Positions 4,078 to 10,177 of a DNA stretch of 64,000 bases are shown here, piece by piece. The position numbers were made by a program, and so were the translations under genes. The notes below the pieces were generated by a model. It worked only from the letters and a program-made list of their open reading frames with translations. It made no database searches and had not been told where the DNA came from. Source of the stretch: Halomonas fontilapidosi (GTDB lineage: Bacteria > Pseudomonadota > Gammaproteobacteria > Pseudomonadales > Halomonadaceae); NCBI RefSeq assembly GCF_014192285.1, contig NZ_JACHXQ010000001.1, positions 434,001 through 498,000 on the forward strand, in the 5' to 3' direction. Each line of letters starts with the position of its first letter. Positions within the stretch are counted from its first letter, which is position 1.

Positions 4078-5838
4078 TCAAGGCTTCGGGAGCACCTTCA
4101 GACCAGGAAGGCGCCCCAACCACACTGCCAGCTCGCATGCGGCCATTGGCGAGCCGAGCAGGTTTCCCTGGACCTGATCGACCCCTTTTTGCTGCGCCAC
4201 CTTGAGCTGCTCGGCTGTTTCGACGCCTACCACGATGCTGTCTATTTGCAGCGCAGTGAGGCACTGCGACAGCGCACCCAGCGCCTGGCGCGCAAAGGCA
4301 CTGCTGTCCGTCAGGCCATGCACCAGCTCGCGCTCGATCTTGCCTCGGGCAATAGGCAGCATGGCCAAGCGAACCAGATCCAGATGCCCTCCTCCCAGCT
4401 TGTCGGCTACCAGTTGCACCCCCATGCGCGCAAGGCGACGCAGCAGGAGGCTATGGCCTTCGACCTGTTCAGAGAGCACCCAGCCATCGACCTCCAGGCT
4501 AAGCCAGCCCAGATCATCGGCCATTCCGCGCAGAAAACGATCGAGCGGACGACCGTCAAAGGCAGAGGGCTCCAGCAGGCTGGCATCGAGGTTGATAGAT
4601 ATCCTTAGATCCGCCGAGAGCGCGCCTTCCGACTGCCAGCGCTGGTGCTGAGCGATGACCTGCTCGATGACCCAGCGATCGAGCCTGACCATCTGCGCCA
4701 TCTCCGCCACCAGCGGCAGGAAGTCGACAGGCTGGAGAACACCCCGCTGAGGATGACGCCACCGCACGAGCGCCTCGACGCCCACACAGCAGCCACTCGC
4801 CAAGTCAACCTGCGGCTGGTAGACCACAACAAAATGACGGTCGGGAAACAGCAAGGCCTCCTGCAGACAGGATCGCAGCGCCATACGCTGCGAAAGCATG
4901 CGCTTGATGCTTCGATCGTGGAAAACATGACTGGCAGGACTCGCCCGACTCAGTGCCTGACCGGCATTGGCCATCAACTGCTCTGTTGAATTGCCATCGT
5001 CCGGATACATGGCGATGCCGATGGATAGCGTGAGCAGTAATGGTGGTCGTCCCTGCTTGAATGGCGCCTCCATGGCTTCTAGACAGCGAAGTGCGGCAGC
5101 CTGCAGGCTCTCCGGAGACACGGGGTGCTCTATCAACACGCCCCAGTGGTCATCACCGAGATAGGCGACGCTGTCCTCAGTCCGCAGGGTACCCATCAGG
5201 CGACGGCTTATCTGCGGCAGCAGCGTCTGCATCACCGGCTCACCATAGACCTGCCGGACATCCTCGGCACGATCCAGCCGAATCAACAACACAGCCAAGC
5301 ACTGATCGTGCCGATCGGCTCGATCCATTGCATGACGCATCCGGTCCTCGAAAACCCATTGGCTGGCAAGACCAGTATGCGGATCCGCCGTGGGAGGGAG
5401 TTCTCCCGCCTGACCTGCCCGGAGATCGACGAAAGCCAGCATCCTGGCGACACCGGCGGGAGCCGACTCAGGGCTGACCTCGGCCATCAGGACTATTTTG
5501 GGGGATTCGATGCCCTCACTGGCCAGCCATATGCGCTGCCACTGCTGACTGACCGATTCCGCATTGCGTTGGTTCGGAATCGGCAACCATGACACCATTC
5601 GAACCTTATCCGTCAGCGGCTTGTTTACCAGCACCTCTTCTGCCGCCCCGACCAATTCCAGAAAGCCCGGATTGGCCCAGAGCACCCTGCCTTGCGCGTC
5701 GAGCACCACCAAGGCCATCGGCGCATGCTCCACAGCAAGGCGGGCCAACACAGCCGGATGGTATGTCAGGGCCGAGTTGTCGACCTCGCCGTTTCCTGAA
5801 GGGGGGTGTGGCGGTAATCCAGCACCATCATCGGACAT
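4078..5838 (-). CDS. PAS-GGDEF-EAL protein with degenerate catalytic motifs
   Basis: A 586-residue cytoplasmic protein with an N-terminal PAS domain (about 25-140, LARLAVEHAPMALVVLDAQG), a GGDEF domain (about 150-310) and an EAL domain (about 325-575). The GGDEF signature reads GDDHW, so diguanylate cyclase activity is unlikely. In the EAL domain the EALVRW motif is intact, but the DDFGTG motif reads DKLGGG and AEGVE reads VVGVE, so metal-binding residues of phosphodiesterases are lost. It probably acts as a nucleotide or protein-binding regulator. It is convergent with flgN and divergent from the PilZ-HD-GYP gene, which suggests a motility role (inference). Confidence 0.85.
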   Translation of the reverse strand: MSDDGAGLPPHPPSGNGEVDNSALTYHPAVLARLAVEHAPMALVVLDAQGRVLWANPGFLELVGAAEEVLVNKPLTDKVRMVSWLPIPNQRNAESVSQQWQRIWLASEGIESPKIVLMAEVSPESAPAGVARMLAFVDLRAGQAGELPPTADPHTGLASQWVFEDRMRHAMDRADRHDQCLAVLLIRLDRAEDVRQVYGEPVMQTLLPQISRRLMGTLRTEDSVAYLGDDHWGVLIEHPVSPESLQAAALRCLEAMEAPFKQGRPPLLLTLSIGIAMYPDDGNSTEQLMANAGQALSRASPASHVFHDRSIKRMLSQRMALRSCLQEALLFPDRHFVVVYQPQVDLASGCCVGVEALVRWRHPQRGVLQPVDFLPLVAEMAQMVRLDRWVIEQVIAQHQRWQSEGALSADLRISINLDASLLEPSAFDGRPLDRFLRGMADDLGWLSLEVDGWVLSEQVEGHSLLLRRLARMGVQLVADKLGGGHLDLVRLAMLPIARGKIERELVHGLTDSSAFARQALGALSQCLTALQIDSIVVGVETAEQLKVAQQKGVDQVQGNLLGSPMAACELAVWLGRLPGLKVLPKP

Positions 5839-5937
5839 GGAAAACTCCCGGCAAGCTCGCTGCTCAGATTACCCTTATACTAGTCAATTCATATCGACCA
5901 TCTGAGCCGAGACTTGAGGAAAAGAAGAGCCTGCAGC

Positions 5938-5964
5938 TCAAGAAGACGCTCCAACAGCCGATAG
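5938..5964 (+). promoter_or_regulatory. Predicted FliA (sigma-28) promoter of the PilZ-HD-GYP gene
   Basis: TCAA, 15 nt, then GCCGATAG. The -35 variant TCAA is the same as in the predicted motA promoter of this window, and the -10 matches 7 of 8 consensus positions. It ends 36 nt before the ATG at 6001. In enteric bacteria ycgR is also a class III, FliA-dependent gene, which supports the call. Confidence 0.72.
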
Positions 5965-6000: not shown

Positions 6001-7683
6001 ATGTCGCAGCAACAGGATGGCTACGCGCGCGTGGAGAGCCCCTCCGAGATTGAGGCGTTACTGGAAGCCTTGATTGAACCCGGCGGGGCATCGCTTCAGG
6101 TGAACACCCCCGGCAGCCAGCCACTGCCGGTGCTTGTCATGGAGCAACACCCGGGGGAAGCCCTGGAACTGGACATCAGTGCCATCCGTGAGATGGCCGG
6201 CGAGCTGAAACGCGGCCAGGAGTTTCGACTCCTGGGGCAAGCTCAAGGCAAGATGCTACGCACCCCGGCAATCACAATGACGGAATGCCATGAGGCGGAT
6301 GGCCGCCTGATGTGCCTCTGCCCCTTCCCCCATCACCTGGAAGTACTACAACGCCGAGAATCCTTTCGCGCACGTCTCAGGCTGGGCATGGAAGTCGGTG
6401 CCATCCTGCGCGGCAAAGCGGGAGAGTCGGCCCAGGGGGATCTGAAAGACCTCTCGCTAGAGGGCTGCCAACTCGAGCTGTCGCTCTCCGCCGGCGCCTT
6501 GTTGGCAGATAGCGATCCGCCTCACGAGGTGGAGTTTTGCTTTCCCAATGACACCCGGTTCACTGTTCACGCAACACCTCGTCATCAGCAAGTGGATACC
6601 GAACGCCAAGTCATACTGAGTGGCTTTCGTTTCGACACCCTCAGCGGTGAGCGTGAAAGGCAACTGTGGTTCCTGGTTCGCGAGATCGAGCGCGAGGCGG
6701 CACGCTATGACAAAGGCGGAGAAGGGACACGCCTGCCATCACTGCTCTTCCAGCCCCGGACTTCCACACCACCCGTAGTGGGCCGACGCAACAATCAAGC
6801 CTACCCAACGCCCATGGCAAGACGCCTGGCACGTATCGCCGGCTACCTGGATGCGCAACTGCTCGAACTCCAACAGGGCGGGGAAGTCGACTCGGTTCAG
6901 CTATCACGACACGCCGACCGCCTGTTGCTACTTCACGATGAGGACCGCCAGGGGCTTCTCTTCGCCACACGCTGCCTACAGCATGAACCCAGGCTAGTGA
7001 GCCATAGCCTCGGGGTCAGTGTCGGCCTGCTGGAGCTGGCTGGCCTATCATCCCTTCCACGAGAAATGTGCAAGACCATGGTGGCGAGTGCCATGGTTCA
7101 TGATCTGGGCAAGGCACTGCTGCCGGCCGAGCTATGGCAGCTGCAGCACCCCGATGAGCCACAACGCCAGCAAATGGGGCGCCATGTGGAGGCACTGAGA
7201 GACCGCATGGGGCGCTGCCATTGGCTCTCAGCCAATATCCTCGAATCGGTGGCGTACAACATCAATGAACGCCTGGATGGCAGCGGGTACCCTCGCCGCC
7301 TTGCGGGCAACGATCTCCATGAGCTGGCTCGAGCCGCTGCAGTCGTGGATGCCGTCGATGCCATGCGGCGAGACCGTCCGGACCGCCCTGCGTGGCGGAT
7401 TGACGCCATCTATCGATATCTGCTGAGCCAGCCAGAACAGTTCGATCAGCGCTGGGTCAAGCGCTACATCAAACGGTTTGGCCTCTACCCAGTCGGTTCA
7501 CTGGTACGCTTCGGCAGTGGCCAGCTGGCATGGATTCAAGCTCATGACGCTCATGGCTCTCCTGAACAGGTGCAACTCACGCACTCAGCAGAGCCTCCCG
7601 GGCCGGCCCTTGGCAATATCCTACGAGGAGCCAGTCTGCAGCGTCTCGGAAGTATCCAGGAGGAACTCCCCGTATCCGCCTAA
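6001..7683 (+). CDS. YcgR-type PilZ protein fused to an HD-GYP-like domain
   Basis: A 560-residue cytoplasmic protein. Residues 1-110 resemble the YcgR N-terminal domain. A PilZ domain follows, with the c-di-GMP-binding QRRESFR motif (residues 117-123) and DLSLEG (from D150). Residues about 270-510 form an HD-GYP-like domain with VSHSLG, VHDLGK (H367, D368), RLDGSGYP and the DAVDAMRRDRPDRPA helix. The HHE motif before DGSGYP reads INE (421-423), so two metal-binding histidines are missing and hydrolysis is doubtful. YcgR (about 244 residues) normally ends after PilZ and brakes the motor when bound to c-di-GMP. A predicted FliA promoter precedes it. Confidence 0.88.
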   Translation: MSQQQDGYARVESPSEIEALLEALIEPGGASLQVNTPGSQPLPVLVMEQHPGEALELDISAIREMAGELKRGQEFRLLGQAQGKMLRTPAITMTECHEADGRLMCLCPFPHHLEVLQRRESFRARLRLGMEVGAILRGKAGESAQGDLKDLSLEGCQLELSLSAGALLADSDPPHEVEFCFPNDTRFTVHATPRHQQVDTERQVILSGFRFDTLSGERERQLWFLVREIEREAARYDKGGEGTRLPSLLFQPRTSTPPVVGRRNNQAYPTPMARRLARIAGYLDAQLLELQQGGEVDSVQLSRHADRLLLLHDEDRQGLLFATRCLQHEPRLVSHSLGVSVGLLELAGLSSLPREMCKTMVASAMVHDLGKALLPAELWQLQHPDEPQRQQMGRHVEALRDRMGRCHWLSANILESVAYNINERLDGSGYPRRLAGNDLHELARAAAVVDAVDAMRRDRPDRPAWRIDAIYRYLLSQPEQFDQRWVKRYIKRFGLYPVGSLVRFGSGQLAWIQAHDAHGSPEQVQLTHSAEPPGPALGNILRGASLQRLGSIQEELPVSA

Positions 7684-7707
7684 AGTTGCCAAAGAGCGTG
7701 CCGATAA
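7681..7707 (+). promoter_or_regulatory. Predicted FliA (sigma-28) promoter of fliST, overlapping a stop codon
   Basis: TAAAGTTG, 11 nt, then GCCGATAA: a perfect TAAA and a perfect GCCGATAA with 15-nt spacing, the best sigma-28 match in the window. The first three bases of its -35 element are the TAA stop codon of the upstream PilZ-HD-GYP gene. It lies about 130 nt before the fliS ATG, which leaves a leader of roughly 120 nt. Confidence 0.88.
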
Positions 7708-8658: not shown

Positions 8659-9887
8659 GCGGTATAACGCCTCTGCTGGACACCCTGCTGCATCAAGTGC
8701 TGGGCAAACGGGTCGACACCCCGCCTGCCCAAGACTTGAACCAGCCGGTCAAGCCAACCTCTCCCGCAGAGGCCCCAAAAGCCTTGCACAGTGATTCGCG
8801 CCTTGACGCCCGAAGCAACTCGCCTGGGTTGCCGGAACTGGGCCGGACCTCTCGAGAGCGGTCAGGTGCCACTTCTGGGACAATGCCGCCACAAGGTCAT
8901 CCTCCCGCCTCGGCGCAGACCCATTTCAGCACATCAGCACGAACCATCGCCGACCTACTCGTCCGCTTTCCCGCTCCGCCATCTGTCGTGACGACGGCGA
9001 TGCCACTGATGCCCCGCGAACCGATGCCAGCCCCAACCATCTTGGCGACTCGCCTGGAAGACAGCATCCGTCACAGCGGACTCTTCTATGAGTCGCACCT
9101 GGCCCGCTGGTTCAAGGGAGAGCTGCCACGTCAGCAACTCGAACGCGAACCGCAGATGTGGCGCTCCCTGAACTTCATCCCCTCAGGGGGTGGCCATGGA
9201 GCAAACTCGTCAAATAATCTCGGTAGCGATCGCCACTCTCCCTTCCTGCTTGCCCCCTTATTCTCCAGTCGCACTCACTCACCTGCCGCTCCCCACCCGA
9301 CTAACGTCCCGGCTTCCTCGCCACAGTCACAACCAGCAGCCAATGTCGCAGGCTCTACCACTGCGCCGCCTCACGCCGTCCCGACCTCGAGCCCTTCAAC
9401 TACCGGAAACGATAACGGTGCCACGCCTAACCCGCGCGAACCACTTCCCGAGACCAGCTCACGCTCAAATCAAGCCGTTCACGAGAGCCTGCAGGGAATC
9501 GTCCGCCATCAGCTCGAAATGCTGGTAACGCCCGCCCTGCGCTGGGAAGGTGACGTCTGGAGCGGCCTGTTCATGGCGTTGATGATCCAGGTTCCTCCCG
9601 GTCACCAAGACCGGACGGGTGGCGAAAAGCGCAATACGGAAAACCGCGACGCTGAACAACAAGGCTGGCGCTCAGAGATCGACCTAAACATCGCCGGCCT
9701 GGGACGCGTCAAGGCATCGCTATGGATGCAGGCCCATAGCGTGGAGATCGAGCTGAATGCCGCTCAAGAGCTCACTCGTCGTCAGCTCGAGGGAGGTATT
9801 GAAAGCCTGAGGTCTCGACTCGCCGGTCACGGTTTCGAAGAGGTCCGGATCGACCTGAACGGCCCGGTCGAGGGACAGCTGTCATGA
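8655..9887 (+). CDS. FliK-like hook-length control domain protein
   Basis: A 410-residue protein starting with GTG in a 4-nt overlap with fliT. Residues 1-280 are Pro/Ser/Thr-rich and low in complexity, as in the secreted ruler part of FliK. The last 120 or so residues form a Flg_hook (FliK C-terminal) domain, including LGRVKASLWMQAHSVEIELN and RSRLAGHGFEEVRIDL. FliK measures hook length and triggers the FlhB specificity switch. Here the gene is next to a small FlhB-C-domain gene and not in a fliF-fliR cluster, so it may be a second, divergent FliK paralogue rather than the canonical one. Confidence 0.75.
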   Translation: MSGITPLLDTLLHQVLGKRVDTPPAQDLNQPVKPTSPAEAPKALHSDSRLDARSNSPGLPELGRTSRERSGATSGTMPPQGHPPASAQTHFSTSARTIADLLVRFPAPPSVVTTAMPLMPREPMPAPTILATRLEDSIRHSGLFYESHLARWFKGELPRQQLEREPQMWRSLNFIPSGGGHGANSSNNLGSDRHSPFLLAPLFSSRTHSPAAPHPTNVPASSPQSQPAANVAGSTTAPPHAVPTSSPSTTGNDNGATPNPREPLPETSSRSNQAVHESLQGIVRHQLEMLVTPALRWEGDVWSGLFMALMIQVPPGHQDRTGGEKRNTENRDAEQQGWRSEIDLNIAGLGRVKASLWMQAHSVEIELNAAQELTRRQLEGGIESLRSRLAGHGFEEVRIDLNGPVEGQLS

Positions 9888-10177
9888 CCCATCAGAACCA
9901 GGAAGGACGTCGCCAGGCCGTCGCACTGGCCTATCACGATAGTGAAGGCGCCCCGCGGGTCATCGCACAAGGCTATGGTGAGCTCGCCGAGCGCATCATC
10001 TCGGAAGCCCGGCGCCAGGGGATTCATGTGCATGATGCCCCAGAGCTTGTCGGGTTGCTGATGCAGTTGGACCTGGACGAGGCTATACCGCCACGACTCT
10101 ATCAGGTCATTGCAGAGCTGCTGGTGTGGGTATACGAACTCTCACCAGGCGATCCACGGAATAACCCCCACCAATAA
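9884..10177 (+). CDS. FlhB C-terminal-domain-like protein (FhlB/FlhB2, YscU-type switch fragment)
   Basis: A 97-residue protein that matches only the cytoplasmic C-terminal part of FlhB: AVALAYHDSEGAPRVIAQGYGELAERI aligns (AVALxY ... AP.VIA.G.GELA..I) with the region just after the FlhB autocleavage site, and IPPRLYQVIAELLVWVYEL matches its conserved end. It has no membrane part and begins just after where NPTH would be, so it resembles the released FlhB-CC fragment. It overlaps the FliK-like gene by 4 nt. Such orphan domains exist elsewhere and can replace or modulate FlhB-C in export (family knowledge); the role here is inferred. Confidence 0.85.
   Translation: MTHQNQEGRRQAVALAYHDSEGAPRVIAQGYGELAERIISEARRQGIHVHDAPELVGLLMQLDLDEAIPPRLYQVIAELLVWVYELSPGDPRNNPHQ

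Follow-up and report, generated by a model that had tools for sequence, protein, structure and literature searches.

YcgR and its Pseudomonas homologue FlgZ reduce motility and respond to c-di-GMP via their PilZ domain (PMC6093933, in excerpt), and in Pseudomonas the flgMN genes are followed downstream by flgZ, whose expression is lowered in fliA and fleQ mutants (from an excerpt of PMC3913639). For the HD-GYP phosphodiesterase PmGH, the accessible sections of PMC4159591 report that the H276A and H277A substitutions essentially abolish phosphodiesterase activity, that essentially all activity is lost in mutants of the metal ligands except E185A and D305A, and that the E185-type ligand is missing from a whole subgroup of HD-GYP proteins. 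DvhD, which carries Met-Asn at the HH position and SQ at the HD position, binds c-di-GMP without hydrolysing it, and its stalk moves upon binding (partial text of PMC13090378). Mononuclear sites exist within the HD superfamily (PMC8177086, in excerpt), and the HDOD protein SadB of Pseudomonas binds c-di-GMP (PMC6543031, in excerpt).

In a 64,000-nucleotide stretch of Halomonas fontilapidosi DNA (hereafter, the window), a gene on the plus strand (6001 to 7683; ATG at 6001, stop codon ending at 7683) encodes a 560-residue protein that is a FlgZ/YcgR-type PilZ protein joined to an HD-GYP fold, the HD-GYP domain being degenerate. The FlgZ/YcgR-type N-terminal domain (residues 12-105; 6034 to 6315, plus strand) received no Pfam call in the fusion protein, and the NCBIfam YcgR equivalog scored 13.2 bits on it (cut-off 400); Pfam PilZN is present in a distant member of the family, L180 (39.7 bits, cut-off 23), and a profile of 22 homologues aligned to P. 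putida PP4397/FlgZ (2gjg) over residues 12-239 with an E value of 3e-17. The PilZ domain follows (residues 117-225; 6349 to 6675, plus strand; Pfam 27.5 bits, cut-off 22.5), with its RxxxR motif as QRRESFR (residues 117-123) and its DxSxxG motif as DLSLEG (residues 150-155), and a helical segment seen in structure models (residues 263-326; 6787 to 6978, plus strand) joins it to the degenerate HD-GYP domain (residues 330-482; 6988 to 7446, plus strand; Pfam HD_5 57.3 bits, cut-off 27.2). The fusion of a PilZ domain to an HD-GYP domain with HDLGK, which a sequence-only reading had proposed from these motifs, is thus borne out by two Pfam matches over their cut-offs. Within the HD-GYP domain, the dyad H367-D368 (7099 to 7104, plus strand) is kept as part of HDLGK (residues 367-371); HHExxDGxGYP reads INERLDGSGYP (residues 421-431; 7261 to 7293, plus strand), with Ile-Asn replacing the HH of HHE and the Glu kept; and the stretch from 7348 to 7386 (plus strand) runs from D450, equivalent to the PmGH metal ligand D305, to R462 (K317 in PmGH), including R459 (R314).

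A full-length AlphaFold2 model (mean pLDDT 82.8, pTM 0.69) agreed with this profile-based architecture; Foldseek placed the FlgZ structures 3kyf and 2gjg at the top and YcgR and MrkH next; the HD-GYP structures 4mcw, 9rbz and 3tm8 appeared among ranks 18 to 22. When residues 261-560 were modelled alone (pLDDT 89.2, pTM 0.89), the best Foldseek match was 9rbz (4.7e-6), 4mcw scoring 3.2e-5, and VIA-align returned 3tmd (Z 18.5, rmsd 3.5, 221 residues aligned), 9rbz_A (Z 16.9, rmsd 4.5, 182 aligned) and 4mcw_B (Z 14.8, rmsd 3.0, 166 aligned), HDOD proteins reaching a Z of only about 7 against the domain model. A single-sequence PDB search with the HD-GYP domain put DvhD at the top (4.7e-10; PmGH 2.7e-9), and the 22-homologue profile matched PmGH over residues 334-483 at 8.5e-15 and DvhD at 6.9e-13. 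DvhD and PmGH are in a near tie as the nearest HD-GYP relative, their order shifting between sequence and fold methods, and our preference for DvhD as the analogue is weak because PmGH, an enzyme, outranks it with the family profile.

Relatives of the fusion protein were found by tblastn (E 1e-3, genome contigs) in 296 stretches, of which the best 80 (the named loci) plus the window make up the 81-sequence set used below. The best 80 of the 296 are mostly from Halomonas, Billgrantia, Vreelandella, Litchfieldella and Onishia, and also include Alcanivorax/Alloalcanivorax, Oceanisphaera, Aliidiomarina, Halochromatium and Lamprobacter. Four Chromatiaceae contigs (L084, L085, L087 and L090) carry the fusion gene with fliS, fliT, FliK-like and FlhB-fragment genes; two of them, L084 and L087, were placed in our tree, where they fall among Halomonas, reflecting either transfer or contamination. 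As the sequence-only reading had stated, plain YcgR-type proteins stop after PilZ: in a class survey (369 genomes), 61 of 69 FlgZ-type matches were frames of 180-345 aa. In an order survey (390 genomes), 46 of 88 such matches were frames of at least 500 aa and the other 42 measured 236-330 aa. A sequencing accident was ruled out, the fusion being present in 34 of 60 same-genus genomes and in the best 80 of 296 loci. Local duplication was rejected as the source of the HD-GYP domain, since the genome holds no other HD_5 match at E 0.001, beside 34 GGDEF and 18 EAL matches over cut-off.

NERLDGSGY was one of two search patterns for the 80-locus set. The state of the HHE position was read in 83 further fusion proteins from motif-blind searches (33 orthologues and 12 paralogues from the same genus, and 38 proteins from other genera and families). 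None of the 83 has the HH pair, so the loss that the sequence-only reading had noted in a single protein extends to its relatives. At the position of the second His, 69 have Asn, 3 Ser, 2 His (with Ser before it) and 6 another residue, the position being missing in 3. Control HD-GYP frames of the order had HH in 26 of 27 readable cases and HC in 1; these come from 30 loci that were the best HD_5 matches of 56 genomes, a choice biased to well-kept domains, 3 of them without a regex-readable motif. The same-genus set leaves out L051 (a contig end without the HD-GYP part) and L002 (a duplicate of the window), and counts only the C-terminal part from genome G032, where the gene is split into two ORFs. 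Among the 46 long frames of the order survey, 1 is the window, 1 (G006) was already in the same-genus set, 37 gave new rows and 7 were unread; G265 was added from the class survey, and two further class-survey frames (L168 and L169; 458 and 465 aa) failed the span filter and lie outside the motif reading. With no HH in any of the fusions read, the loss of the pair probably dates back to the origin of the family, or there were several early losses. The fusion is an old, widespread family without an intact HH in any member read.

Two groups depart further from the HD-GYP consensus. Families f6 and f37 have a more eroded HD-GYP part, with 3 ORFs lacking the HHE segment; their rows form a starred group apart in the tree, whose midpoint root serves for drawing only and in which L178, L163, L187 and L048 are long and of unsure placement. 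A second PilZ plus pseudo-HD-GYP paralogue (L037-L048, L167, L200-L204) occurs in 12 of 60 same-genus genomes, in all 12 beside the flagellar fusion. This paralogue clade keeps the Asn or Ser and the GYP Tyr, and has lost D368 and D450 in 12/12, HD reading HT, HS, HA or HV and D450 being replaced by K.

Residue equivalences were taken from alignments to PmGH and DvhD, with which the letters and numbers in the papers agree. In the 81-sequence set (the best 80 of 296 plus the window), H335, H367, D368, K371, H395 and D450 are present in 81/81, and in 32 or 33 of 33 sequences of the same-genus set. N422 and Y430 are likewise found in 81/81, although counts from N422 to P431 are partly built in by the search pattern; R462 is found in 81/81 and R459 in 78/81. 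In the PilZ domain of the same 81 sequences, R119, R123, S152 and G155 are invariant, and residue 150 is Asp in 70 and Asn in the other 11, giving (D/N)xSxxG throughout. Five of the eight residues of the PmGH metal octet are kept in the fusion (the equivalents of H189, H221, D222, H250 and D305), and those of E185, H276 and H277 are not, the E185 position being variable. The PmGH contacts to c-di-GMP are matched in kind (Y285 by Y430, R314 by R459, K317 by R462). Three of the eight canonical-site contacts of DvhD have like residues in the fusion and a fourth position is often basic; no match exists for L577, Y652, E668 and Y523.

Of the six regions measured in close pairs, the helical segment (residues 263-326) had the lowest median dN/dS, 0.031; the other medians were 0.066 (PilZ), 0.092 (C-terminal part), 0.098 (HD-GYP part), 0.103 (linker) and 0.105 (N-terminal domain). 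These values rest on 60 of 116 pairs, the closest ones, with 44 to 55 usable values per region. The HD-GYP domain is under purifying selection about as strong as that on the N-terminal domain and weaker than that on PilZ; in the pairs examined it is kept and not decaying.

A FliA (sigma-28) type box, TCAAG-N14-GCCGATA (5938 to 5963, plus strand), ends 37 bases short of the fusion gene's start codon, and a second one, with 0 mismatches, lies upstream of fliS, identified by Pfam (7681 to 7706, plus strand). With a spacing of 13-15 allowed, the pattern has two occurrences in the window, against none in 100 shuffled versions. The first three bases of the fliS box double as the stop codon of the fusion gene. 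With at most 1 mismatch allowed, a FliA-type box precedes 37 of 79 fusion genes (0.1% of 790 shuffles), the other 42 upstream regions having none at that threshold; these 79 are from the 81 loci (the best 80 of 296 plus the window), L081 and L087 offering too little upstream sequence. Pfam recognised FlgA, FlgM, FlgN, FliS, FliT, FlhD, FlhC, MotA and MotB in the window, along with FliK-like and FlhB-like genes. Between the FliK-like gene and flhDC, a small frame (9884 to 10177, plus strand) corresponds to the C-terminal part of FlhB only (Bac_export_2 positions 262-335). The flgMN genes end 2 kb upstream of the fusion gene in the window and were found within the 6-kb flank in 6 of the best 80 of 296 loci. 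Downstream, fliS is present on the same strand in 74 of these 80 loci (L119, without fliS, is a short contig), its stop-to-stop frame starting at most 600 bases from the fusion in 45, and is followed, where the contig reaches, by fliT, a FliK-like gene, an FlhB C-terminal fragment, flhDC and motAB.

Of 60 same-genus genomes, 36 carry the main FlhA type, and 34 of these have the fusion; it is found in 0 of the 24 others. The 34 include one gene truncated at a contig end and one broken into two frames, and the 24 include G016, which has a second FlhA type only. FlhA was also present in 29 of 29 further fusion-bearing genomes tested, from 17 genera. Two genomes, G029 and G038, have the main FlhA and neither the fusion nor any PilZ match. 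In G032, the fusion gene (L036) is split at the linker (residues 237/243), likely by sequencing errors, since another FlhA-type copy there is split too. In some genera the fusion gene is not beside flagellar genes, and adjoins frames that we take to be serB, parC and parE. Judged from box, co-occurrence and the downstream fliS, the fusion gene is in all appearance a member of the flagellar regulon, in keeping with its assignment to the motility programme by the sequence-only reading.

A GGDEF-EAL gene lies within the fetched flank in 35 of the best 80 of 296 loci, and none was detected there in 45. Eight of these neighbours are encoded on the opposite strand, like the one in the window; the remaining 27 lie upstream and share the strand of the fusion gene, with 25 of them no more than 400 bases away. 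The same-strand gene encodes a different, longer protein (27-33% identity to the window's neighbour) in which the EAL and DDFGTG motifs mostly look intact; long frames of this kind include L061 1908-5942, L103 1892-5944 and L118 1942-5952 (all plus strand), with GGDEF and EAL intact-looking in many. The neighbour in the window (4078 to 5838, minus strand) is a PAS-GGDEF-EAL protein that looks degenerate and may be non-catalytic, because its GGDEF reads LGDDH and the DDFGTG loop of most relatives reads DKLGGG; its gene is divergent to the fusion gene and has a FliA-like box of its own (5892 to 5917, one mismatch). Relatives of this protein with more than 50% identity occur in 6 of the best 80 of 296 loci. 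As a universal partner of the fusion protein it was rejected, the opposite-strand type being present in 8 of those 80 loci. Since the loci are related to each other and were counted without a base rate, the recurrence of GGDEF-EAL genes beside the fusion gene is suggestive only.

We consider it somewhat probable that the fusion protein is a c-di-GMP motor effector whose HD-GYP domain no longer hydrolyses the messenger and has been kept as a regulatory, most likely nucleotide-holding, module. As YcgR and FlgZ cut motility via PilZ and c-di-GMP, a FlgZ/YcgR-like action with a regulatory HD-GYP domain is the most economical reading. The gene would be expressed under FliA; PilZ would bind c-di-GMP and the N-terminal domain would contact the motor, as in FlgZ and YcgR, presumably braking it. 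With an aliphatic or small residue, and then Asn, in place of the two His ligands next to GYP, the HD-GYP domain would have lost c-di-GMP hydrolysis, as the PmGH mutants lead one to expect. The old active-site cleft may instead hold a nucleotide, most likely c-di-GMP or its product, perhaps alongside a metal bound by the H-HD-D residues that remain, and the state of the cleft could be relayed via the conserved helical stalk to PilZ, so that braking would depend on two inputs. Both the retained contacts and the example of DvhD suggest that the cleft binds nucleotide, and the invariant HD-site ligands, which are missing in DvhD, point to a retained metal. A metal-free receptor would need no invariant H335, H367, D368, H395 and D450, which is a point against a DvhD-like reading, and the erosion in f6 and f37 makes ligand-holding of the proposed kind impossible there. 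It also counts against this main reading that some genera have the gene away from flagellar genes and that G029 and G038 have FlhA without the fusion.

The same invariant residues could belong to a working enzyme, in which the H335, H367, D368 and D450 site would still hold a metal and act on another phosphate ester or a linear product, with Asn422 tuning it. H335, H367, D368, K371, H395 and D450 in 81/81 sequences (the best 80 of 296 plus the window) and the mononuclear sites reported for the HD superfamily (PMC8177086, in excerpt) speak for this explanation; however, both histidines beside GYP are gone, PmGH mutants of such ligands are essentially inactive (PMC4159591, in the accessible sections), and the paralogue clade has been retained despite losing D368 and D450 in 12/12, so that the family as a whole does not share hydrolysis as its function, and we judge a metal enzyme unlikely. 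Between the two roles left side by side by the sequence-only reading, a sensor or pseudo-enzyme is favoured here, and an enzyme with altered metal use keeps a small share of the probability on account of the five former ligands H335, H367, D368, H395 and D450. The fused domain might also be a functionless, decaying remnant. The graded erosion in f6 and f37, down to 3 ORFs without the HHE segment, looks like drift of this kind, but a domain dN/dS of about 0.1 in close pairs, which tells against it for Halomonas, and the same five ligands in 81/81 (again the best 80 of 296 plus the window) make this very improbable.

A role in protein docking deserves more weight, even if we do not expect it to be the answer. 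The conserved GYP face would recruit a partner, most likely the adjacent GGDEF-EAL protein, and the messenger would be made or removed at the motor. HD-GYP domains can reportedly dock GGDEF proteins through GYP, as in RpfG. Within the domain, NERLDGSGYP ranks among the best conserved segments in both paralogue clades, and the GGDEF-EAL gene detected near the fusion in 35 of the best 80 of 296 loci, 27 times upstream on the same strand, also suits docking; the 27 same-strand loci are why docking was retained as a rival. Yet the 45 loci without a detected GGDEF-EAL neighbour leave it with no universal partner, and R459 and R462 are kept too, though remote from GYP in sequence. Docking and the main reading can both hold, and our odds for them are not exclusive. 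A fuller form of the main reading, which we put forward tentatively and regard as doubtful, is a brake with two c-di-GMP sensors, PilZ and a repurposed, metal-holding HD-GYP cleft, that would serve a halophilic and marine clade as its substitute for plain FlgZ, often with an adjacent GGDEF-EAL protein, the metal-free paralogue providing a second output. Such a brake could integrate the messenger level with a second state, be it occupancy of the second site or a metal or redox state.

If the main reading is true, the fold of a messenger-degrading enzyme has become a permanent component of a motor brake. Beyond the sequence-only reading, the family adds Asn at the position of the second His in 69 of 83 members and, as closest known analogue, DvhD, a non-hydrolysing c-di-GMP receptor (PMC13090378, partial text). 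Forms with the metal quartet kept, the paralogue without it and the eroded forms offer a natural series for the function of dead HD-GYP domains. For annotation, the only HD_5 match of this genome should not be counted as a phosphodiesterase on sequence alone. The sequence-only reading had named many published homologues of known role as what would speak against it; in the literature searched, a partial coverage made up of titles and abstract beginnings of open papers, we found no description of this PilZ-HD-GYP architecture.

Among known systems, FlgZ (PP4397 of Pseudomonas, the YcgR homologue) is the counterpart of the N-terminal domain and PilZ, alike over residues 12-239, and as at Pseudomonas flgZ, the window has flgMN upstream, together with a FliA-type box. 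FlgZ and YcgR end after PilZ, at about 240-280 aa, whereas the fusion has 320 further residues. For these, DvhD of Desulfovibrio vulgaris (9rbz, 9rc0) offers an HD-GYP fold in which HH is replaced by a hydrophobic residue and Asn, as in the fusion, and the GYP Tyr and an Arg equivalent to R650 are kept in the fusion as well. DvhD itself is a receptor located in the membrane; it contains a PAS domain, has a LapD-like role and has lost the HD pair (PMC13090378, partial text), whereas the fusion keeps that pair along with another three metal ligands and has a preceding PilZ domain. The c-di-GMP phosphodiesterase PmGH (4mcw) shares the fold, five of eight metal ligands and the matched contacts Y285 and R314, but is a GAF/HD-GYP protein without PilZ and has H276, H277 and E185, which the fusion does not keep. 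The highest Z (18.5 over 221 residues, N-terminal helices included) belongs to Bd1817, a Bdellovibrio HD-GYP protein (3tmd), at 12% identity; its entry title gives the motif as HDG"Y"P, so that its oddity lies at the Tyr and not at HH. SadB of Pseudomonas is also a motility regulator with a non-catalytic HD-type (HDOD) domain; it differs in its YbaK-like N-terminal domain, and from a VIA-align Z of only 6.5 we do not infer kinship.
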